64,000 bases of DNA from an uncultured cyanobacterium (GTDB lineage Bacteria; Cyanobacteriota; Cyanobacteriia; Cyanobacteriales; Nostocaceae): assembly GCA_903848645.1 (NCBI GenBank), contig CAINGU010000041.1, forward strand, positions 1-64,000. Direction: 5' to 3'. Under the pieces are notes generated by a model. That model did no database searches. It saw nothing but the letters and a program-made list of their open reading frames with translations, and was not told the DNA's origin. This document shows positions 7,340 through 39,177 of this stretch, in pieces. Positions within the stretch are counted from its first letter, which is position 1; each line of letters begins with the position of its first letter. The position numbers and the translations under genes were made by a program.

Positions 7340-9526
7340 GTGTCAAACAACTCAGGGTTGTACATTTTGCTCGTCAGTGTTCATGGTTTAATTCGTGGTC
7401 ATAATCTAGAGTTAGGTAGAGATGCTGACACTGGTGGACAAACAAAATATGCAGTTGAACTTGCTTGCACATTGGCTAAAAATCCCCAAGTAGAAAGGGT
7501 TGACCTAGTAACGCGGTTGGTAAATGACCCAAAAGTTAGTCCTGACTATGCTCAACCAGTGGAAATTCTTGCAGATAAAGCCCAAATTATTCGCATTGCC
7601 TGTGGTCCCAAACGCTACCTCCGCAAAGAAGTTCTCTGGCCACATTTAGATACCTTTGCAGACGAATTACTCAGACATATTCGCAAAGTTGGCAAAATTC
7701 CCCATATTATTCATACACATTACGCCGATGCCGGATACGTAGGTTCTAGAGTTGCCGGGTGGTTAGGAATACCCCTAGTACATACAGGTCACTCCCTGGG
7801 ACGCATCAAACAACAAAGATTATTAGAACATGGGACTAAACAGAAAACCATAGAAGAAAATTTTCATATTAGTACCAGAATAGAAGCCGAAGAAATCACC
7901 CTGGGTAGTGCAGCCTTAGTCATAGCCAGCACTCATCAAGAAGTTGAAGAGCAGTATAGCGTTTACGATCACTATCAACCAGAACGCATGGTAGTCATCC
8001 CTCCAGGAGTTATCTTAGAGCGTTTTTACCCAGCCCCAGATAATTGGCAAAACCCACCTATTCAAGAGGAATTAGCAAAATTTCTCCAAGACCTGCAAAA
8101 GCCCATAATTATGGCGATTTCCCGCCCAGCTATGCGGAAAAATGTCAGTAGTCTCATTAAAGCTTATGGAGAAGATCCCAAACTGCGCCAATTAGCCAAC
8201 CTGGTACTAATACTAGGAAAGCGGGAAGACATCCTGACTATGGAATCCGGTCCGCGTCAGGTATTTATGGAGATATTACAATTAATAGATCGCTACGATT
8301 TGTATGGTCATATTGCTTATCCTAAACACCATAATGCGGATGATGTGCCAGATTTATATCGGTTAACAGCAAAAACACAAGGAGTATTTATTAACCCAGC
8401 CCTGACCGAGCCATTTGGACTAACATTAATAGAGGCTAGTGCCTGTGGTGTCCCCATAATTGCCACTGCTGATGGTGGTCCTAGAGATATTCTAGCGGCT
8501 TGTCAGAATGGATTATTGATTGATCCTTTAAATATTCAAGATATCCAAAATGCTTTGCGAATATCTCTCACTAATCAAGAACAATGGCAACAATGGTCTA
8601 AAAATGGACTGATCAATGTTTGCCAACATTTCTCTTGGGATAGTCACGTAGAGCATTATTTAGCACAAGTCCGCCGATTATTGCCCCAAAAACGCATTCA
8701 ATCTCTGTTGAGTCCCCTAGACAAATCTCCCGCAGATCAACATCCCGACTGGAATGTACCCAAAACCAATCACCTACCAACAGCAGATCGGTTTCTGGTG
8801 TGTGAAATTGATAATACCCTCTTAGGTGATCAAGAAGCTTTAGAAAAGTTAATTCAGAGAATTCGTAATGAAGGTAATACAACTGGAGTTGGTATTGCTA
8901 CAGGTCGCAGTCTCAAAAGTACCTTAAGTATGTTAGAAGAATGGCGCTTCCCCATGCCAGATTTATTGATTACATCAGCAGGAAGTTCTATTTACTATGG
9001 TCCGCAGATAGTCACAGATACAAGTTGGCAAAGACACATTGCCTATAATTGGCGACGCTCAGAAATTCGCAAAGTTATGCAGGATATACCGGGGGTGGAA
9101 TTGCAACCTCCTGATGCTCAAGGCAAATTTAAGATCAGCTATTTTGTTGATGAGGCAAAATCACCTAGTTTTCGAGAAATTATCCGTCGTCTGCGTCAAA
9201 ATCACCTCCATGTCAAAGGAGTTTACAGCCATAATATGTATCTAGATTTAGTGCCTATCCGCGCTTCCAAAGGAGATGCTATTCGTTATGCAGCTTTAAA
9301 ATGGGGTTTACCAGTTCACCGCTTCTTAGTCGCTGGGGCTTCAGGTAATGATGAATCAATGTTAGCGGGTAATACTCTAGCGGTTGTGGTGGGAAATCAC
9401 AGCCAAGAAATTGAAAAGCTGCGCGGCTTACCACAGATTTACTTTGCCCAAGGAAATTATGCTTGGGGTATCTTAGAAGCATTAGATCATTATGACTTTT
9501 TCGGTAACTTGTGTCCAACACCATAA
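7340..9526 (+). CDS. spsA: Sucrose-phosphate synthase with inactive-looking phosphatase domain
   Basis: Makes sucrose-6-phosphate from a nucleotide-glucose and fructose-6-phosphate; sucrose is a compatible solute and the carbon carrier to heterocysts. The 728-aa protein has an N-terminal glycosyltransferase-B part (residues 1-460: HGLIRGHNLELGRDADTGGQTKY, and the TEPFGLTLIEASACG E-x7-E motif) and a C-terminal HAD phosphatase-like part (about 485-725). In the latter, the catalytic DxDxT reads E489-I-D-N-T and the later GDSGND reads G-A667-S-G-N-D, so two acidic catalytic residues are changed and the domain is probably structural or regulatory. The lysine-containing RASKGDAI is kept. Start is GTG with GGAGGA nine bases upstream. 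A separate phosphatase gene should exist outside this window. Confidence 0.94.
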   Translation: MSNNSGLYILLVSVHGLIRGHNLELGRDADTGGQTKYAVELACTLAKNPQVERVDLVTRLVNDPKVSPDYAQPVEILADKAQIIRIACGPKRYLRKEVLWPHLDTFADELLRHIRKVGKIPHIIHTHYADAGYVGSRVAGWLGIPLVHTGHSLGRIKQQRLLEHGTKQKTIEENFHISTRIEAEEITLGSAALVIASTHQEVEEQYSVYDHYQPERMVVIPPGVILERFYPAPDNWQNPPIQEELAKFLQDLQKPIIMAISRPAMRKNVSSLIKAYGEDPKLRQLANLVLILGKREDILTMESGPRQVFMEILQLIDRYDLYGHIAYPKHHNADDVPDLYRLTAKTQGVFINPALTEPFGLTLIEASACGVPIIATADGGPRDILAACQNGLLIDPLNIQDIQNALRISLTNQEQWQQWSKNGLINVCQHFSWDSHVEHYLAQVRRLLPQKRIQSLLSPLDKSPADQHPDWNVPKTNHLPTADRFLVCEIDNTLLGDQEALEKLIQRIRNEGNTTGVGIATGRSLKSTLSMLEEWRFPMPDLLITSAGSSIYYGPQIVTDTSWQRHIAYNWRRSEIRKVMQDIPGVELQPPDAQGKFKISYFVDEAKSPSFREIIRRLRQNHLHVKGVYSHNMYLDLVPIRASKGDAIRYAALKWGLPVHRFLVAGASGNDESMLAGNTLAVVVGNHSQEIEKLRGLPQIYFAQGNYAWGILEALDHYDFFGNLCPTP

Positions 9527-29427: not shown

Positions 29428-30144
29428 CTAAAATCCCGCAATTGGATCTGGTTGAGATTTGAGGTAAGTAAGAAAATTCCGTAATTCTTCTTCACTAAGT
29501 AGAGAACGTCCTCTTTTACCGTAGGTTTTCACTAGATAATCTTTTCCTTGTTCTGGGGTCCAGCCTAATCGTTCGATTTCTACATCTGTTTGAGCAATGA
29601 CATCAGATAAATTGATTGGTTCGTTGTGTCTCTTTTTCTTACCCACGGCTGACTGGACACCAACATCCTCATAAGGGGTATAACTACGAGGGGTAAAGGG
29701 TGTAACGTTACTCAGCGGAACTTCTGATAAAGGTTGATATTCTGGTTCTTGACTAGGAAATATTTCTGGTTTTATAACTTTGGTATCAATCTGCTCTTCT
29801 ACGACAGGTGGTGTATATACCTGTGTGTTATTGACAGAAGAAATAGGTTTTAATTCATCTGATCTAGATTTGATTGGTGGTGAAACAACCGATGGTAAGG
29901 CAGATTTTGTGACTTCCCCTGGTATATCCTTGATGCCTAAAACCGTCAATGCTCGATTTCTGGCTTGGTCTTCTGCTGCTTCTACCGTTTCTGCTCCTGC
30001 GATCCCCGTTGCACGAGTGATACCTTCAAGTTGTACACTGACACGGACGATATATTTCCCTTGAAAAATTTCTATTAATTCTGAGATAATACTGCCGTTG
30101 GGGTACAAATTCTGGAACTGCGCCAACATCATACTTTCAACCAT
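29428..30144 (-). CDS. Conserved cyanobacterial protein, unknown function
   Basis: A 238-aa soluble protein. The N-terminal 70 residues (LAQFQNLYPNGSIISELIEIFQGKYIVRVSVQLEGITRATGIAGA, then AEDQARNRALTVLG) look like an alpha-beta domain with the pattern of Rad52/dsRBM-like nucleic-acid-binding folds. The middle is a Pro/Ser-rich, probably disordered linker. The C-terminal 45 residues (LGWTPEQGKDYLVKTYGKRGRSLLSEEELRNFLTYLKS) form a small helical unit often seen at the end of cyanobacterial DNA-handling proteins. DNA binding is inference from this look. It stands alone, convergent with clpP. Confidence 0.65.
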   Translation of the reverse strand: MVESMMLAQFQNLYPNGSIISELIEIFQGKYIVRVSVQLEGITRATGIAGAETVEAAEDQARNRALTVLGIKDIPGEVTKSALPSVVSPPIKSRSDELKPISSVNNTQVYTPPVVEEQIDTKVIKPEIFPSQEPEYQPLSEVPLSNVTPFTPRSYTPYEDVGVQSAVGKKKRHNEPINLSDVIAQTDVEIERLGWTPEQGKDYLVKTYGKRGRSLLSEEELRNFLTYLKSQPDPIAGF

Positions 30145-30914
30145 TTTTATCTAAATTCTCGTAATAATGTAAGTTGCTAGTCAAGGGAACAGGGAACAGG
30201 GAACAGGGAATATGGGGCAAGTCAAGAATTTTTCTCCATTACCAATTACCTATGACCAATTACCAATCCTCTAGACAAAACCCCATATTTCAATATAAAG
30301 TCTTACTGAGAACTAAGCACTCATGACATTAAATATGTCCTGATACTAGCAGTTCTTGATCACAAATTGTCGTCTTCCCTTAAATGCTATACTAATTACC
30401 CAATTAGATATCTAGAAGTATTTTTAAAGAAGTGCGCTCTAAATCTACAATAATAAAGATAAGGTTCGCCCTCACTGCTTGTGTTTTACTGCTTACCTAA
30501 TTGTTACCGATTCTACATTATGGGAGAATTGGGTTTATTGGCAGTTTCTCCTAGTTAAGACATGGCTAGTGCCACGCTATGCTATCAGAAGATGATGGCG
30601 TAAAATTACCTTTGATCTAAACAATCAAACACCTGTGGTTAAATCGGTTTATAGCTTCTGGGTGGTATGGAAAGTTATCCAAACCAAGTCTCTTGTCCAA
30701 CCCATTACCTATTTACCTAGTGGTTAATCACTGAGTATCAGGAGTGCATGATGAGTATTGTTTAGATCAAGCTAGGGGTCACGCAAGCAAATTCTGAGAT
30801 TGTCGTCCAGTAAGAAGTCGGAGCAGGGACTTCCTCCTACCGTACCGTGACCGCAACTAGTAAAGAACCAGATTCGACAAAAAATGATGTTTTGACCAAA
30901 GGTCGGTTCACTGC
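30145..30914. other. 770-bp gene-free region before the RNase-family gene
   Basis: No coding region is supported. Near its left edge is a GGGAACA heptamer array (30185-30211, four units). The rest is of mixed composition, less AT-rich than other gaps, and contains several short hairpin-capable stretches (for example around 30830-30870, GTCGGAGCAGGGACTTCCTCC). It could hold a long 5' leader of the following gene or a small RNA. Nothing matches tRNA, tmRNA, RNase P RNA or SRP RNA as far as I can tell. Confidence 0.4.
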
Positions 30915-33263
30915 ATGGAATTTTCAATCGCTACACTTCTTGCCAATTTTACAGATGATAAATTGGTAGCTCGTAAAGTCCTAGAAAAGAAACTTGGTTG
31001 TGAGGATGAAGAAAGTCTAGAAAAACTGCAAATTACTCTGGATGTTCTCGAAAAAATTGGGCTTTTGGTGAAAGAACGGGGGAAATACCGCCGCATTACC
31101 GAAGAAGGCTTGATAGAGGCTAAACTGCGTTGTTCTAGTAAGGGCTTTTGTTTTGCGATTCAAGATAGCGAAGGCTCAGAGGATATTTACATCCGCGAAA
31201 GTCATTTGAGTAACGCCTGGAATGGCGATCGCGTTTTAGTCAGAGTCCTCAAAGAAGGTAGTCGTCGGCGCTCACCAGAAGGCGAAGTGAAGTTGATTAT
31301 GGAGCGGTCTAATCATACTTTACTAGCCAGAATTAAGCAGGTAGAGGGGGGTTTTCGGGCTGTTCCTTTAGATGACAGATTGCTGTTTGAACTGAAACTA
31401 CAACTCAACAGCATGAAGTTGGAAGAAGCGATTGATCACTTAGCTCATGTAGAAATCCTCCGTTATCCTCTGGCACAATATCCCCCCTTGGGTCGAGTGG
31501 TGCAAATCCTTGGTAGTGATGCCGAAGCCGCAGCGGATATAGATTTGGTAACTTGTAAACATGATTTATCCCGAACTTTTCCCGATTCTATCCTTGATGC
31601 AGCGGCGAAGTTACCCAAGAGACTCCTGAAAGCAGACCTGAAAAATCGTCTAGATTTACGTGATGTTTTTACCTTCACGATTAAGAGTGGTAACAGTGAT
31701 GAGTCAGTAGTAGAAAATGCCTTTAGTCTGGAAAAAACCACTGCTGATAATTGGCGATTACTATTTCACATTACGGATGTTTCCCACTATATCCAACCAG
31801 ATGAAGCCCTAGACAGGGAAGCACTGAAGCGGGGTAAATCAGTGTATCTGGGAGAATTGTTACTGCCAATGTTGCCACCAGTGGTGACAGAACGGTGTTC
31901 TTTAGTCCCTGGTAGCGATCGCTTGGCGCTTTCCTTTGTCATTACCATTAACCCCCAATCAGGAGCAGTGGAGGAATGGGAAATTCAGCCTAGTGTTATT
32001 AATGTAGATGTAGCTGTCAGTCAAGTAGATACACAAAGCATTCTCTCTGGTGAAGCCACGAAAGTAGCAGTGGAAGTCCAAGAGAAAATCCAAGATTTAC
32101 AGACTTTGGCTATTGCTATTAAGCAGGTACGCTTACAGCGTGGCAGTTTACAGTTGAATCTCCCACCTAGCCAAAATCCTTACTATGACGAGGGATCAAT
32201 GGGATCGGTGGTGGTGAATGACTTACCTGGGCGATCGCTGATTACCGAGTTGGTTATATTAGTTAATCAACTTATGGCCAATCACCTCAGCGCCCTGGGA
32301 GTTCCCAGTTTATGGAGAGTCCAAGGTACACCTGATCCCGAAGATGTTCAGGAAATGCTCAAACTAGCCGTTAATTTAGGTGTGGAATTAGGACTAGATC
32401 CAGAACTGGAAATCCAACCTCTAGATTATCAACACTTGACGGGGGCTTTTGCTGATTCCCCATCGGAACAAGTTCTCACCTATTTGTTACAGGACACACT
32501 CAAGCCTTCTTTATATAGCATTACCAAGAGTTCTCACTTTGGACTAGCTTTGTCGCAATATGTCCACATTACCGCCCCCTTACGTCGTTATCCAGATATT
32601 CTCTTGCAACGGGTGTATAATAACTTGCTAGAGTATGGACGGGATCGGCGGAATACCCGCGTTAAAGAACGGATTAATCTCCGCCATTCCAATTGTCACG
32701 AAGAAATTAATTGGAACGTTCTTCCCCCAGAACTTCAACAAGAAATGCAAAGTGACTTAACCAGAGTCATTGTGCAAATTAATGATCGGGAAAAAGAAGT
32801 CCAAGAAGCTGAAGCTGATTTAGCAGGACTACAAAAAGCCTCCTTGATGAAACAACGCATTGGCGAAGTATTTCCAGGAGTAATTACTGGTGTTCAATCC
32901 TACGGCTTCTTTGTAGAAATTGAAGTCCCTGTAGAATTGCCGACAGAAAGCAATCTAGCTAATACCTTACGGGTAGAAGGACTAGTTCACGTCAGTTCCC
33001 TCAAAGACGATTGGTATGAGTATCGAGCTAGACAACAGGCTCTATTTGGGCGGAAAAATCGGGCTTCCTACCGACTGGGCGATAGCTGTATGGTGCAAGT
33101 TAAGAGTGTTGATTATTACCGTCAACAAATTGATTTAGTGACAGTTGGTGCTGATGGTTTACCCAAAGGCATGGGTGCAAATAGTGGTAATGAGGATACA
33201 GGAGATATTTATTCACCTAATAAAACCGACTCTTTTGACCAAGAACCCTATGATCAGGAATAG
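30915..33263 (+). CDS. RNase II/R-family protein with altered catalytic site (Zam-like?)
   Basis: A 782-aa protein of the RNB exoribonuclease family, which degrades RNA 3' to 5'. In order: N-terminal winged-helix/cold-shock-like region (1-230), RNB domain (about 240-600) and C-terminal S1 domain (about 645-750, FPGVITGVQSYGFFVEIEV). The RNB catalytic Asp cluster, normally T-I-D followed by D.DDA, reads TIK257SG then V-V-E267-N268-A, so the four metal-binding Asp are not conserved. The HITAPLRRYPDILLQRV segment is kept. Length and altered site suggest the cyanobacterial Zam-type paralog rather than a working RNase R, but that assignment is from memory of the family. ubiX follows 94 bases downstream. 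Confidence 0.85.
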   Translation: MEFSIATLLANFTDDKLVARKVLEKKLGCEDEESLEKLQITLDVLEKIGLLVKERGKYRRITEEGLIEAKLRCSSKGFCFAIQDSEGSEDIYIRESHLSNAWNGDRVLVRVLKEGSRRRSPEGEVKLIMERSNHTLLARIKQVEGGFRAVPLDDRLLFELKLQLNSMKLEEAIDHLAHVEILRYPLAQYPPLGRVVQILGSDAEAAADIDLVTCKHDLSRTFPDSILDAAAKLPKRLLKADLKNRLDLRDVFTFTIKSGNSDESVVENAFSLEKTTADNWRLLFHITDVSHYIQPDEALDREALKRGKSVYLGELLLPMLPPVVTERCSLVPGSDRLALSFVITINPQSGAVEEWEIQPSVINVDVAVSQVDTQSILSGEATKVAVEVQEKIQDLQTLAIAIKQVRLQRGSLQLNLPPSQNPYYDEGSMGSVVVNDLPGRSLITELVILVNQLMANHLSALGVPSLWRVQGTPDPEDVQEMLKLAVNLGVELGLDPELEIQPLDYQHLTGAFADSPSEQVLTYLLQDTLKPSLYSITKSSHFGLALSQYVHITAPLRRYPDILLQRVYNNLLEYGRDRRNTRVKERINLRHSNCHEEINWNVLPPELQQEMQSDLTRVIVQINDREKEVQEAEADLAGLQKASLMKQRIGEVFPGVITGVQSYGFFVEIEVPVELPTESNLANTLRVEGLVHVSSLKDDWYEYRARQQALFGRKNRASYRLGDSCMVQVKSVDYYRQQIDLVTVGADGLPKGMGANSGNEDTGDIYSPNKTDSFDQEPYDQE

Positions 33264-33357
33264 TCAGTGGTCAGTTGTTCTTTGTCCGTTGCTAGTTGTC
33301 CGTTGTTAGTTGTCCATTGCTATTAACTACTGACCACTGACCACTGACTACTAACTA
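33264..33357. repeat. Heptamer-periodic spacer between RNase-family gene and ubiX
   Basis: The whole gap reads in steps of seven: GTCAGTG, GTCAGTT, GTTCTTT, GTCCGTT, GCTAGTT and so on, then the inverse ACTACTG, ACCACTG, ACCACTG, ACTACTA. The array runs directly into the ATG of ubiX, so this gene has no normal Shine-Dalgarno. Confidence 0.8.
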
Positions 33358-33978
33358 ATGACTAATAACACAAAACCTTTAATCCTGGGCGTAACAGGTG
33401 CATCTGGTCTAATTTACGCCGTTCGCGCTCTTAAATTTCTCTTAGCAGCAGAATATCAAATTGAATTAGTAGCCTCTAAATCTACTTACACAGTTTGGCA
33501 GGCAGAACAGGAAATCCGAATGCCAGGAGAACCAGATAAACAAGAGCAATTTTGGCGAGAACAAGCAGGAGTCTTATCCCAAGGTAAACTCCGCTGTCAT
33601 CCTTGGAGTGATGTTGGTGCTGGTATTGCCAGCGGTTCTTTCCGCACTTTGGGGATGATCATTATGCCTTGTAGCATGAGTACAGTTGCCAAACTCGCTG
33701 GAGGACTAAGTTCCGACTTACTAGAACGAGCCGCAGATGTCCAAATTAAAGAAGGGCGTAAACTGGTAATTGTCCCCAGAGAAACCCCCTTTAGCTTAAT
33801 TCACCTCCGAAACTTAACAACCTTAGCAGAAACTGGAGTCAGAATAGTCCCCGCTATTCCTGCTTGGTATCACAACCCTCAAACCATTGAGGATTTAGTT
33901 GATTTTGTGGTTGCTCGCGCTCTAGATCAATTAGATATTGACTGTATACCAATTCAGCGATGGCAAGGTCATTTATAG
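33358..33978 (+). CDS. ubiX: Flavin prenyltransferase UbiX
   Basis: Joins dimethylallyl phosphate to FMN to make the prenylated flavin cofactor used by UbiD-type decarboxylases, a step linked to quinone synthesis. The 206-aa protein has the N-terminal GVTGASGLIYAVRALKFLL, the active-site ASGSFRTLGMIIMPCSMSTVAKLAGG and VPRETPFSLIHLRNLTTL. These are standard for the family at standard length. The start is the ATG that ends a heptamer repeat tract. It belongs to a run of plus-strand genes (RNase-family, ubiX, lapA-like, aroK). Confidence 0.95.
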   Translation: MTNNTKPLILGVTGASGLIYAVRALKFLLAAEYQIELVASKSTYTVWQAEQEIRMPGEPDKQEQFWREQAGVLSQGKLRCHPWSDVGAGIASGSFRTLGMIIMPCSMSTVAKLAGGLSSDLLERAADVQIKEGRKLVIVPRETPFSLIHLRNLTTLAETGVRIVPAIPAWYHNPQTIEDLVDFVVARALDQLDIDCIPIQRWQGHL

Positions 33979-33993
33979 CAATTAAAAATTCAC

Positions 33994-34038
33994 AATTAAA
34001 AATTAAAAATGGAATAACTAAATTTTTAATTTTTAATT
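33994..34038. repeat. AT heptamer inverted repeat after ubiX
   Basis: AATTAAAAATTAAAAAT (33994-34010) and its exact inverse ATTTTTAATTTTTAATT (34022-34038), each two units of a TTTTTAA heptamer, form a 17-bp stem with an 11-base loop. Confidence 0.75.
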
Positions 34039-34101
34039 CTGTTTTGCTCTTCTGTTTCTCCCTACTGTATTCTCAATTCCTGCTGCAATTTTGAATTCTT
34101 T

Positions 34102-34737
34102 ATGGTTGTAATTCGCTTAATTATATTGGTGACGGTAATGTTAGGACTAATAATAATATTAGTCCAAAATTTGTCGCCCTCACTTCCTTTAGTGTTTTTG
34201 GGAATGCGAACTCAAGCATTACCATTAGCATTGTGGATTTTATTAAGTATCACTGCTGGTATTTTCACATCTTTAATAATTAGCACGGTGTTAAAATCTG
34301 CTATTTACTTAAGTTCACAAGAACAACAACCTATTCCTAAACCAATTCCGACTCCACCCCGTGTCAGGCAAAATACCCCACCTCCTAGCAGTCCCCCACC
34401 CCCAGTTAGTCAATTTAATGATGAATTTGACGATTGGGACACAAATCGAAATCAGGATGATTGGGATGATGGAGAAAATTCACAACCAGTAGAAGAAACT
34501 TCCCCAAATCAAAAAAGTTCTCATTCCCGGACTAGTTCTGTTTATTCCTATAGTTCCCAAGAACCGAAAAATACTGGTGTGGGTAAAACTGAATCCGTTT
34601 ATGATGCTGATTACCGGGTAATTATTCCTCCTTACCAAGCATCAGGAAAAAATCAAGCAACGGATGATGATGACTGGGATTTTTTTGAAGATGATGATTT
34701 TGAGGATGATGCCGAAAATAAGCCACAGAAACGCTAA
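34102..34737 (+). CDS. LapA-domain membrane protein with acidic tail
   Basis: A 211-aa protein with two N-terminal membrane helices (IRLIILVTVMLGLIIILVQN and ALPLALWILLSITAGIFTSLIIS) matching the LapA/DUF1049 domain. The remaining 140 residues are soluble, Pro-rich then strongly acidic (DDDDWDFFEDDDFEDDAE at the end), and probably disordered. The domain occurs in E. coli LapA of the lipopolysaccharide-assembly control system; the role in cyanobacteria is unknown. A shorter relative is at 51717. It stands between ubiX and aroK. Confidence 0.82.
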   Translation: MVVIRLIILVTVMLGLIIILVQNLSPSLPLVFLGMRTQALPLALWILLSITAGIFTSLIISTVLKSAIYLSSQEQQPIPKPIPTPPRVRQNTPPPSSPPPPVSQFNDEFDDWDTNRNQDDWDDGENSQPVEETSPNQKSSHSRTSSVYSYSSQEPKNTGVGKTESVYDADYRVIIPPYQASGKNQATDDDDWDFFEDDDFEDDAENKPQKR

Positions 34738-34785
34738 TTTAAGCTTAAATAATAATAATTAATAATTTTGCAGGAGAAAATACTA

Positions 34786-35322
34786 GTGACTAATTTATTA
34801 AAAGGAGTGAACCTCTATTTAATTGGCATGATGGGAGTTGGTAAGACAACAGTAGGAAAATTACTAGCAGAAGAAATTGGTTATAGATTTGTAGATACAG
34901 ATGAAGTGATAGTCAAAGCCGCAGGTAAATCTATCAACGAAATATTTGCCGAAAATGGTGAAGCAGAGTTTCGGAAATTAGAGAGTGATGTCTTAGCTCA
35001 AGTTTGTGCTTATACTAAATTGATTGTAGCTACTGGTGGCGGTATTGTCATACAGCAGCAGAATTGGAGTTATCTCCATCATGGTTTGATAGTTTGGTTA
35101 GATGCACCAATACCAATAATATTACAGCGATTAGCGGCAGATAATACCAGACCACTTTTACAAGATGCTGATATGGAAAGTAAATTGAAATCGCTTTTAG
35201 AACAACGTCAACCAATGTACTCCCAAGCTGACTTACAGATTACCATTACTGCTACCGAAACACCAGAAGAAATTGCCACACGCATTCTAGCCACAATTCC
35301 CAGTATTCTCAAACCACAATAA
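34786..35322 (+). CDS. aroK: Shikimate kinase
   Basis: Phosphorylates shikimate at the 3-OH using ATP in aromatic amino acid synthesis. The protein has Walker A GMMGVGKTTVG, substrate Asp in FVDTDEVI, EFRKLE, the shikimate-binding ATGGGIV and the lid region ADNTRPLLQ. The start was placed at GTG 34786 because an AGGAG lies 9 bases upstream (34772-34776). A TTG at 34768 would put that ribosome site inside the gene. This gives 178 aa, the usual size. Confidence 0.95.
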   Translation: MTNLLKGVNLYLIGMMGVGKTTVGKLLAEEIGYRFVDTDEVIVKAAGKSINEIFAENGEAEFRKLESDVLAQVCAYTKLIVATGGGIVIQQQNWSYLHHGLIVWLDAPIPIILQRLAADNTRPLLQDADMESKLKSLLEQRQPMYSQADLQITITATETPEEIATRILATIPSILKPQ

Positions 35323-35689
35323 TTCGTTCTGGGAATCGGGAATGATATAAACTTTTCTAGTCTAATTAAGTGCAAATTTATCTGCGTTTATCTGCGTCCA
35401 TCTTCTTCCATCTGCGGTTAATTATTTCTTGTTGTACCTCACTTGAATAGGAATTGCTATATAAACCCTGTCCAATTTGAAACCTGGAGTAATGGGAGCA
35501 TCTTGCTCGCTACTCATCCAAGATGTTCCCACTACTTTCAATAACTATGGCGCTCAAAATAGACTTGGTATATCTATAAAAAGGAATAGAAAGCAAGTAA
35601 TTTCTTGTCAAAAGAAAGATGCAGAATTCTCTCATCAAGAGTTGAATTGAATCTATATTCTTTAGTTATCCTAGCTGTGGATAAAATCT
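35323..35689. repeat. Intergenic region with two interspersed repeat types
   Basis: At 35380-35425 is a run of ATCTGCG units (TTTATCTGCGTTTATCTGCG, then CCATCTGCGGTTAATTA), also present at 9600-9630. At 35494-35530 is a GCATCTTGC hairpin: GGGAGCATCTTG pairs with CAAGATGTTCCC with one mismatch, related to the hairpin at 22691. No gene is seen. Confidence 0.65.
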
Positions 35690-36856
35690 ATGACTATATT
35701 TTCTCTTGATGAACTCAAAAGTTTAGTCCAAAATCCTCAGTATCCATGCGTTTCTCTGTATCTACCTACGGAAAAAATAGGAGAAGAGACGCGACAAAAT
35801 CCGCTTCGGTTTAAAAATTTAATTCGAGAAGCTGAAAATCGCTTAGATGAAATAGGATTGCGCCATACTGAGACTATAAATTTGCTCAAACCAGTAATGG
35901 AATTAGACAATACTGATTTTTGGGAAAATCAAAAGCAGGGATTAGTAATTTTTATTTCCCCCAATCTATTTCGTTACTATTGTTTACCAATTTCTTTTCC
36001 CCAATTAGTGGTTGTTGGCAAGAATTTTCATATCAAACCCTTATTAAATGTGATTAATAATGATGGAAAATTCTACATTTTGGCTTTAAGTCAAAATCAT
36101 GTCAAATTATACTCAGGAACGCGCTACCAACTCAATGAAGTCCAAGTAGAAAATATGCCTCATAATTTGGAGGAAACTCTCTTAGAAGATGAATTCCAAA
36201 AAGGCATACAGCATAGAGTTGGCATAGCTAGAGGTGCAACTTCTGCTGCTCAACAACCTGGTTCTGTGCATGGGCAAGGTAGTCCAGATCGAGAGAAACA
36301 TGAAGAAGATATTCTACAATTTTGTTATGCTGTTGATAGTGCATTACATAAAAAAATCCGAAGTGAAAAAGCACCTTTAATATTAGCAGGAGTAGAATAT
36401 TTATTACCAATTTACCGACAAGCTAATACTTATCCATATCTAGTAGAAACAGGTATTACTGGCAATGTAGAACTTTTCAAAACACAAGAATTAAATTGTG
36501 CCGCATGGGAAATTATTGCCCCTTTATTTCAACAAGAATATGCAGATTTAATGGCTATTTATTTGCAACTTGCTGGGGAAGAAAGTAGCAAGATTGCCAA
36601 TGATATTAAAGCAATTATCCCGGCTGCATATTATCAAAGAGTTGATACTTTGTTTGTCCCTCTAAAACAACATATATGGGGTAAATTTGATTTACCAACT
36701 GCCACAGTTGAGTTACATCCAGAACCAGCACCAGATGATGAAGATATGTTAGATTTGGCTGTGATTCACACCATATTAAATGGTGGTAAGGTTTATACTC
36801 TTGAACCAGAAGCAATGCCTCGTGGAGTCAAAGTAGCGGCTATTTGCCGATATTAA
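35690..36856 (+). CDS. Bacterial archaeo-eukaryotic release factor-like protein (baeRF7 type)
   Basis: A 388-aa protein resembling the bacterial families related to eukaryotic release factor eRF1. It shows CVSLYLPTEKIGEETRQNPLRFKNLIREAENRL at the start, GLVIFISPNLFRYYCLPISFPQLVVVGKNFHIKPLL in the middle and a C-terminal domain ending in HTILNGGKVYTLEPEAMPRGVKVAAICRY, the L7Ae/eRF1 domain-3-like pattern. Such proteins are proposed to act at stalled or hibernating ribosomes; the function in this branch is not known. Its stop overlaps that of the convergent PEP-synthase-like gene by four bases. Confidence 0.75.
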   Translation: MTIFSLDELKSLVQNPQYPCVSLYLPTEKIGEETRQNPLRFKNLIREAENRLDEIGLRHTETINLLKPVMELDNTDFWENQKQGLVIFISPNLFRYYCLPISFPQLVVVGKNFHIKPLLNVINNDGKFYILALSQNHVKLYSGTRYQLNEVQVENMPHNLEETLLEDEFQKGIQHRVGIARGATSAAQQPGSVHGQGSPDREKHEEDILQFCYAVDSALHKKIRSEKAPLILAGVEYLLPIYRQANTYPYLVETGITGNVELFKTQELNCAAWEIIAPLFQQEYADLMAIYLQLAGEESSKIANDIKAIIPAAYYQRVDTLFVPLKQHIWGKFDLPTATVELHPEPAPDDEDMLDLAVIHTILNGGKVYTLEPEAMPRGVKVAAICRY

Positions 36857-39177
36857 TTTTTTGAGTCGCTAAGTTGTCGCCGTGCTGCTGCTAAAATTAA
36901 TCGTTGTTCAGCACGAGCGATCGCTTGGTAAGTTCTTTCTACAGCTTCCGGTTCTACAGAAATAGAAGTAATCCCCCATTCTATTAATTTATCAATCATT
37001 TCTGGATAAAGCACCGGGGCTTGACCACAGATAGAACAGGGAATACCTCCAGCTTGAGACATTTTAATTAATTGAGATATTGCCCCCATTACTGCTGGAT
37101 GACTTTCATCAAATATTGTTCCGAGTTTTCCCTGTTCTCGATCTACTCCTAATAGTAATTGAGTCAAATCATTTGTGCCAATAGAAATACCTGCCACACC
37201 AGCTTTAATATATTCAGGTAATAGAAATAATATACTAGGAACTTCTGCCATTATCCATAATTGAAACTGGGATATTTGCGTTAACCCGGCTTGCTCAACT
37301 TTTTGACGACAAAATATAAATTCTTCAACACTACGGACAAAAGGTAATAGCAAATTAATATTTCTATAACCAGAAGCTTGAACCATCGCTAAAGCTTGCA
37401 ATTCCAAGGCAAAAACCGCCGGATTTTGCATATAGCTAAAAACACCCCTTTCACCAAGAATTGATGACTGTGATAATGGGGAATCTGCACTCAATAATGG
37501 TAAATTACGGGGTAGGTAATCTAAAGACCGATAAAAAATAGGTCTAGGTGAAAAAGCGCGAGTAAATTGCCTAATCTGCTCAGATAATAACTCCAATAAT
37601 TCCGACTGTCTTCCTGCTATTAACCATTCTTGAGGATGTTTTCCCTCCAGAATATTTAACATCATCAATTCTGAACGTAATAATCCTACCCCATCTACAG
37701 GTAAACATTTTACTTGTTCAATTAATCGTCCTTGACTCAAATTTATGAGTAACTTAGTGGCAATTATTGGTAAATTTGTTGGCTGATAACTGACATTTTT
37801 TTCCTCCTTGATTAATGCTTCCAACTCCTCACTAGGAAACTCTTCCTCATCTTCTGTGAGCCGATATATTTCTCCCTTATCACCATCTAATAATAACTTT
37901 TCACCTGCTTGTAAAAGAGTGGTTGCACCAGTGGCACTCACCACCGCAGGAATACCCAACTCCCTGGCTAAAATCGCCCCGTGACTAGTTAATCCCCCTT
38001 GTTCTGTAATAATCCCAGCAACTCCTTGTAGTAAGGGTAAGCAATCAGGAGTAATTACCGGTGCAATGAGAATTACTCCTTTAGGAACTTGTATTATTTT
38101 TTGTGATGAATTAAAAATATGGGCGTTAGCAATAATTCTGCCTCTAGCTGCTCCAACACCTTGAATAAATTGGACACTCTTCTTGACAGGTTGGGGAACA
38201 GTGACTTCTGTAATGTAGAGTTTAGTAGACAAAGATTCTTGGGCAACTGTCCATTTCATCGTTAAAGTTGCACCCAATTCACCAACTATTTGATTCCCTA
38301 CCGCAATTAATTCTTGTAAATATTCTTCTGGTAAAGCATATTTTTGTTGTTGAGATTCTTCCAGAAGATAAGCCAGTAAAAAATTAGTATCTAATGTTGG
38401 TTGCAGTTGTTCAGCAGAGAAATCAGTTCCATGATGAAGACGATACGCCAACATTTTATTACCCAATTGTCGTTCTATGACTACGCCAGTTTTTGGTTCT
38501 ATGTAGTAAACATCTGGTAATACTTCACCGTTGGTAATTGCCAATCCCAAACCCCAAGTAGCCTCAATATCCCATGTTGATAATTTAGTATTTATAACAC
38601 CAGAAGCGATCGCATTGTCAACTGGTTGCACTAATACCCCTAAATTAATTTTTGGCAAACTAATACCGATACTTTGCCAATATAGTAAACTTCTAGCCCG
38701 GAATAATTGACTCCAAAGCAGTTTTAAAGCAACACCTATTTCCTCCTCTTCACAAGGACAAAATACTGGTTCTAATAACCCAGATATATTTTTCATTTCT
38801 TGGTTAGTTGATATTGCCAAACTGGGACGCAAAATTAAACTACTTCTTTGCCATTGTCTCGCAGCTTGAAAAATTGTCCTCACCCAATGGTTTGGTACAT
38901 TAGCCGAGATAATTTCCTGACGTAAGCGTCCAGCTACCTGTTGAAGTTGTCGCCAATTATGTACATCTAAATGTAAGGAAGAATGGGGGAAATCAGCAAT
39001 TAACGACTCTGAACTATGGAGATTTTCTAGAAATCGCCGCAAAACATCCGCTTCTACAACAAAACCCGGTAAAACAGGATAGCCCCGTTGTTTAATTTTG
39101 CTTAAATAAAACGCTTGAACGCCAACTTTGGCGCGGTCTTCTAGTTTAATTTGGTCAAGCCAATAGAGTTTATCCAC
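36853..39177 (-). CDS. PEP synthase-like phosphotransferase with eroded N-terminal domain
   Basis: A 774-aa protein of the PEP-utilising family. Order: ATP-grasp-like N-terminal domain (1-330), swivelling phosphohistidine domain (about 365-440, GGLTSHGAILARELGIPAVV with the phospho-acceptor His) and a PEP/pyruvate TIM barrel (about 475-760, GISIGTNDLTQLLLGVDREQ and the catalytic Cys in SICGQAP). In the N-terminal domain two ATP motifs deviate from PpsA: VGGKN is VGVQA and the RSS(A/T) segment is ILRPSLAIS, so ATP use is doubtful. Genuine PEP synthase is usually a little longer (about 800 aa). It may be a paralog with a different donor or a regulatory form. No neighbouring gene points to a pathway. 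Confidence 0.82.
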   Translation of the reverse strand: MDKLYWLDQIKLEDRAKVGVQAFYLSKIKQRGYPVLPGFVVEADVLRRFLENLHSSESLIADFPHSSLHLDVHNWRQLQQVAGRLRQEIISANVPNHWVRTIFQAARQWQRSSLILRPSLAISTNQEMKNISGLLEPVFCPCEEEEIGVALKLLWSQLFRARSLLYWQSIGISLPKINLGVLVQPVDNAIASGVINTKLSTWDIEATWGLGLAITNGEVLPDVYYIEPKTGVVIERQLGNKMLAYRLHHGTDFSAEQLQPTLDTNFLLAYLLEESQQQKYALPEEYLQELIAVGNQIVGELGATLTMKWTVAQESLSTKLYITEVTVPQPVKKSVQFIQGVGAARGRIIANAHIFNSSQKIIQVPKGVILIAPVITPDCLPLLQGVAGIITEQGGLTSHGAILARELGIPAVVSATGATTLLQAGEKLLLDGDKGEIYRLTEDEEEFPSEELEALIKEEKNVSYQPTNLPIIATKLLINLSQGRLIEQVKCLPVDGVGLLRSELMMLNILEGKHPQEWLIAGRQSELLELLSEQIRQFTRAFSPRPIFYRSLDYLPRNLPLLSADSPLSQSSILGERGVFSYMQNPAVFALELQALAMVQASGYRNINLLLPFVRSVEEFIFCRQKVEQAGLTQISQFQLWIMAEVPSILFLLPEYIKAGVAGISIGTNDLTQLLLGVDREQGKLGTIFDESHPAVMGAISQLIKMSQAGGIPCSICGQAPVLYPEMIDKLIEWGITSISVEPEAVERTYQAIARAEQRLILAAARRQLSDSKN

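Follow-up and report, generated by a model that had tools for sequence, protein, structure and literature searches.

What does a protein of the RNase II/R family do after the aspartates of its active site have been lost? The question is raised by a gene of an uncultured Nostocaceae cyanobacterium, located at positions 30915–33263 (forward strand, as are all zam features below) of the window, that is, of the whole stretch of 64,000 nucleotides analysed here. The open frame is full-length, starts with ATG and codes for 782 amino acids; based on the ORF list, Pfam matches and alignment, it is zam, encoding a cyanobacterial relative of RNase R. Pfam recognizes the domains OB_RNB (residues 70–127; 31122–31295), CSD2 (best stretch, residues 174–223; 31434–31583), RNB (residues 245–573; 31647–32633; 276 bits) and S1. 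S1 is matched weakly (33.1 bits, best over residues 646–674); the S1 region at residues 646–741 (32850–33137; Pfam, NCBIfam, conservation) is well conserved among Zams. The best NCBIfam match, to the RNase R equivalog TIGR02063, stays below its cut-off (441.8 versus 597.85 bits), and so do the RNase II models TIGR02062 (72.2 versus 641.9) and NF003455 (95.4 versus 542). In the alignment, the four catalytic aspartates that mark RNase R and RNase II are absent, and the traits of Zam are present, i.e., the OB-CSD-RNB-S1 architecture, a degenerate RNB site, and the redox cysteines C73 (31131–31133) and C79 (31149–31151) of the first OB domain (alignment; PMC9145284, accessible parts). In trees with long outgroup branches, the window protein groups with other Zams, nearer to RNase R than to RNase II. 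An AlphaFold model built from 42 Nostocales Zams was too poor for use (mean pLDDT 43, pTM 0.35).

The former active site (residues 255–269; 31677–31721) reads T255-I256-K257-S258-G259 ... V265-V266-E267-N268-A269. Alignment with RNase II and RNase R of E. coli K-12 places K257, V265, E267 and N268 at the positions of D201, D207, D209 and D210 of RNase II, respectively. The original prediction had read this motif with exact numbering; the loss of the catalytic aspartates is confirmed, and the possibility raised there that other aspartates fill the metal site came out negative in the alignment. Among the contact residues, Y311, R557 and E633 are retained as equivalents of Y253, R500 and E542 of RNase II, and Y313 is replaced by Q370. 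The RRYPDI segment (residues 557–562), part of RRYPDILLQR (residues 557–566; 32583–32612) with R557 at the R500 position, is intact and an S1 domain was found, both as predicted. The invariance of E267-N268 in the alignment of the 42 Nostocales Zams, the window protein included, together with purifying selection (see below) indicates that the altered active site is no sequencing slip. In E. coli RNase II, replacement of Asp209 by Asn abolished activity and left RNA binding unaffected, and D209 was called the most critical position (PMC3293843, accessible parts). The residue at the D209 position in the window protein, E267, is still acidic. Judged from its sequence, the RNB site has decayed so far that the catalytic metals should not be held; loss of hydrolysis is supported by these replacements and by the Asp209-to-Asn exchange in E. 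coli.

Zam has been described as forming a cyanobacterial clade within the RNase II/R family, with the same domains and a degenerate active site (Thomas and others, 2022; PMC9145284, cited here and below from the accessible parts of the article). Its authors came to a conclusion like that of the original prediction, which had proposed a Zam-type, inactive RNase homolog kept for another task, and architecture, C73/C79 and tree position of the window protein fit this proposal. Redox switching and a photosynthesis phenotype were published for Synechococcus PCC 7002: C73 and C79 are redox-responsive and required in vivo, phycocyanin and photosystem phenotypes were reported, with loss of Zam lowering phycocyanin synthesis, and Zam was concluded to link the redox state of cyanobacteria with their RNA metabolism (PMC9145284). 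Purified Zam of PCC 7002 showed neither nuclease nor RNA-binding activity, with a warning on aggregation, and deletion of rnb in this strain was lethal despite the presence of zam (PMC9145284). The RNA-binding role included in the prediction exceeds the evidence, the one preparation reported to lack it being aggregation-prone, and so does the suggested function opposed to that of the paralog. The same article identifies Alr1240, an RNase E partner from Anabaena PCC 7120, as Zam. As far as the accessible part of a review goes (PMC10989914), Alr1240 binds and stimulates RNase E and is said to degrade unstructured RNA like RNase II. An inactive Zam from PCC 7002 and an active exonuclease from Anabaena PCC 7120 are therefore in conflict in print.

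By the published description (PMC9145284), the Zams of Synechocystis PCC 6803 (Sll1910) and Synechococcus PCC 7002 have the architecture, the missing RNB aspartates and the C73/C79 numbering in common with the window protein, whose Lys at the D201 position and Glu-Asn at D209-D210 are set against them on the same basis. Alr1240, compared through published descriptions, differs from our reading of the window protein in being reported as an active exonuclease (PMC10989914). Since the lost site, the redox behaviour and C73/C79 were published in PMC9145284, the central point of our finding is already in print; to the known family and its lost active site, the present analysis adds a decay series, a linker, Zams without the cysteine pair, one genome that apparently lacks Zam, and a sharper statement of the conflict. 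No Zam-centred article besides PMC9145284 was found in a search of mostly openly accessible papers.

The explanation we favour, with a probability of roughly 70%, is that Zam is a catalytically dead, redox-gated degradosome accessory, acting without hydrolysis via its OB/CSD domains, linker and S1 domain. The OB/CSD and S1 domains, together with a linker found only in Zams, would bind RNA or the degradosome, this binding would change RNase E-dependent RNA turnover, and the C73–C79 pair, where present, would switch Zam with the photosynthetic redox state. The analysis itself established which gene this is, that its site is lost, that it is under purifying selection, that conservation is concentrated outside the RNB site, and that relatives show a series of partly decayed sites. 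By analogy with the published relatives, the window ortholog presumably acts as they do, and binding of RNA or of RNase E may be the step that is switched. Points against a dead, redox-gated protein are the reported activity of Alr1240, the lack of RNA binding by the aggregation-prone Zam of PCC 7002, cysteine-free Zams of family f23, and the acidic E267.

For comparison, 179 full-length Zams were taken from fetched loci, and 171 were kept after removal of eight whose first 400 residues repeat those of another; as this set leans to Nostocales, 53 representatives with less than 70% identity were used in addition. E. coli RNase R is the closest active relative tested, all 171 Zams scoring better with it than with the RNase II of E. 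coli or that of the window's own genome; it has the four aspartates. Besides zam, the own genome has a single RNB gene, found on contig C70 as two adjacent matches in the same frame; its active site reads TIDDESTTEIDDG and is intact. The own RNase II has the RNB fold in common with Zam and, in contrast to it, an intact TID...EIDDG site. At the D207 position, Glu was found in eight and Asp in four of the 12 non-Zam RNB rows (RNase II-type and others) taken from these genomes. Rows of the RNase II type align with Zam only over about residues 194–603.

Pairwise comparison with eight Nostocales Zams gave dN/dS values of 0.053–0.082 for the whole protein, indicating purifying selection, and of 0.013–0.045 for OB/CSD (computable in seven of the eight) versus 0.081–0.130 for RNB (all eight), values which are rough because dS exceeds 1 in five of the eight comparisons. 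Over the 53 representatives, conservation was likewise highest in the OB and S1 regions and low in RNB, the same pattern as in PMC9145284. Between RNB and S1, all 171 Zams carry a linker of 29–31 residues (residues 574–603 of the window protein; 32634–32723; defined by conservation and alignment columns), as compared to 10–23 residues in 14 other rows, among them E. coli RNase R with 19 and the own RNase II with 13 residues in these columns. According to the alignment columns, G575 and W600 each occur in 170 of the 171, and 168 have Lys or Arg at position 584. G575, R578, K584 and W600 occur together in 127 only, because position 584 is Arg in 37 Zams; a regular expression for the linker matched 128. 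The linker persists in seven Zams (L133, L134, L135, L136, L140, L141, L143) whose RNB domain is about 50 residues shorter (274–286 residues, as compared to a median of 329). We found no description of the RNB–S1 linker in the accessible parts of PMC9145284.

The peak of conservation in the OB and S1 regions would also suit an action on RNA or ribosomes that bypasses RNase E, such as protection of 3' ends against RNase II and PNPase, or contact with the small ribosomal subunit like that of Bacillus RNase R. The best solved-structure match by sequence is RNase R 8cdu chain C (E 5.6e-90), which we take to be part of a ribosomal complex, and the lowered phycocyanin synthesis upon loss of Zam is compatible with such a role. 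We nevertheless regard it as unlikely, since RNase E is the only partner reported in the accessible parts of PMC10989914 and PMC9145284, and the purified protein did not bind RNA (PMC9145284).

For the favoured accessory role, the cysteine pair would be the switch. Both C73 and C79 are present in 166 of the 171 Zams; both are absent from L129, L134, L140 and L141, all of the Thermostichus-like family f23, and L165 lacks C79. The pair was called invariant in PMC9145284; redox gating is not universal, given the f23 Zams without both cysteines. Another f23 zam (L137, G233:C1:735597–737596), outside the set of 171, also lacks both. In this Thermostichus-like genome the gene is split into two overlapping frames of 281 and 475 amino acids; in the congeneric genomes G079 and G322, zam is a single frame of 699 amino acids.

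None of the 171 Zams has the four aspartates, and none has an acid at all four positions. The D207 column never contains Asp, and Glu occurs there in four Zams, all without the D209-D210 pair. Many different residues are found at the D201 position (E 62, A 20, K 17, T 16, others), and the commonest site patterns are E-V-E-N (41 Zams) and K-V-E-N (13). The equivalent of R500 is Arg in only 14 of the 53 representatives, contact residues being lost outside the window's clade. At least two aspartates remain in eight of the 171, seven of which have the D209-D210 pair (L149, L150, L151, L155, L157, L161, L188). In a search with the RNase R model, four of 388 class genomes exceeded the cut-off, as compared to none of 194 genomes in a smaller phylum-wide sample. 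The 30 loci kept from this search, a biased pick of best scorers in which L217 is the place of L150 again, are all Zams with C73/C79 and the R500 equivalent; none has the four aspartates, the site patterns being K-S-D-D (15), D-V-D-D (11), K-G-D-D (2), K-T-D-D (1) and D-A-D-D (1). The four loci over the cut-off (L212–L215) lack the first two aspartates.

In a carefully built tree of 50 rows, the 29 Zams lacking the D-D pair fell into a single group (support 100/97), with the 20 pair-bearing Zams outside it, on the RNase R side; a quick tree of 69 rows had the same outline, with 48 pair-less Zams in one group and seven D-D Zams outside. Some caution is needed, as the root depends on a single, very long branch, and Gloeobacter-like rows (family f45) form long branches inside the decayed group although the Gloeobacter lineage is held to be deep. 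The seven D-D Zams are ranks 1–7 of 171 in similarity to E. coli RNase R, and ranks 1–5, 7 and 8 when the site is masked. L175, with two aspartates (D-I-D-R), ranks 137 of 171 with the site masked, and over all 171 Zams the number of retained aspartates did not correlate significantly with similarity to RNase R (Spearman 0.11, p 0.16). The similarity of the D-D Zams to RNase R and their place outside the supported pair-less group suggest that the site decayed step-wise, with the second aspartate lost first, the first one next in some lines, and the last two later. A wider reading of this series, which we consider doubtful, would take Zam as a graded record of the change from RNase R to a regulator: the second aspartate would have been lost in the common ancestor, the least decayed forms (D-[V/A]-D-D, R500 equivalent kept) may be slow, perhaps redox-gated, ribonucleases, and the window form would be a pure binding protein working through its OB domains and the Zam-only linker. 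The decay series names natural test proteins, i.e., partly intact, fully decayed, cysteine-free and RNB-shortened Zams, and comparing these variants could tell hydrolysis, redox switching and binding apart without design work.

Continued hydrolysis of RNA through an altered site, for example with E267, other acids and R557, would account for the reported RNase II-like activity of Alr1240 (PMC10989914) and agree with the retained Y311, R557 and E633 and the invariant E267-N268 of Nostocales. This appears quite improbable in view of the free variation at the D201 position, the T-V/L-E-N sites of the Zams L021, L022 and L026 from genus g2, presumed to be near PCC 7120, the inactivity of purified PCC 7002 Zam (with the caveat of aggregation), and the lethality of the rnb deletion (PMC9145284). 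Activity in vitro could stem from carried-over E. coli RNases.

A phylum-wide search with the window protein gave matches in 146 of 291 genomes; five of the 146 lie outside the class and match weakly (G004, G010, G018, G035, G230), and G004, G035 and G230, examined with the RNB family, carry other RNB genes. Within the class, 387 of 388 genomes match, at least G292 and G327 among them through RNase II alone. A decaying pseudogene, which the degraded RNB site might suggest, can be dismissed in view of this distribution, the full-length open frame and the low dN/dS in eight comparisons. Zam was found in every cyanobacterial genome searched in PMC9145284. Four genomes of the class with weak or no matches were examined more closely. 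G327, a single contig with 99% completeness, has one RNB gene, of the RNase II type, and no Zam, and looks like an exception to universal presence. RNase II alone was seen in G292, RNase II plus a Zam end of 52 positions on a different contig in G449, and no RNB gene in the genome G468; these three assemblies have 850–1150 contigs, so that absence there means little. The Gloeobacter-like genome of L131 (G320:C77) contains a third RNB gene, a frame of 635 amino acids without blastp match to Zam. Downstream of zam in L153 (G121:C6), a separate frame of 177 amino acids (7966–8499) shares 61% identity with Zam residues 611–746 and resembles a stand-alone copy of the C-terminal end.

On the forward strand of the window, zam is followed by ubiX of the flavin prenyltransferase family (33358–33978; Pfam, NCBIfam, synteny), a syntenic, membrane-type gene whose product has hydrophobic stretches near its N terminus and belongs to no Pfam family (34102–34737), presumably 'LapA-like', and a shikimate kinase gene (34768–35322; Pfam, synteny). 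As some loci have short flanks, the following counts are lower bounds: ubiX lies downstream of zam on the same strand in at least 78 of 80 Nostocales and 34 of 69 other loci, the membrane-type gene does so in at least 74 and 16, and the opposite strand carries an slr1353-family gene in at least 73 and 24, respectively. In the picocyanobacteria-like locus L203, the order is a CxxCxxCC protein, two GDT1 proteins, zam, ubiX, a membrane-type gene, DUF2996 and a protein of diiron type (Pfam Rubrerythrin), which we take to be AcsF. This setting fits a relation to photosynthesis and is no proof of a role. A promoter and terminator scan of 29900–34200 gave no excess over shuffled sequences (10 versus a mean of 8.8, and 2 versus 2.9).

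The order zam-ubiX-membrane-type gene would fit the unit alr1240-alr1241-alr1242 of Nostoc PCC 7120, which is opposed by the nitrogen-induced antisense transcript TU00785 (PMC10287535, accessible parts). No NtcA-type box (GTA-N8-TAC) occurs on either strand of window positions 30101–35400. Among 69 Nostocales loci, 29 have such a box opposite zam at one offset and 16 at a second; antisense control by NtcA was dropped as a candidate, as conserved coding sequence could explain recurring offsets. Further downstream in the window, genes coding for a baeRF-family protein (35690–36856) and a PEP synthase-like protein (36853–39177), both assigned by Pfam, are convergent and overlap by four bases.
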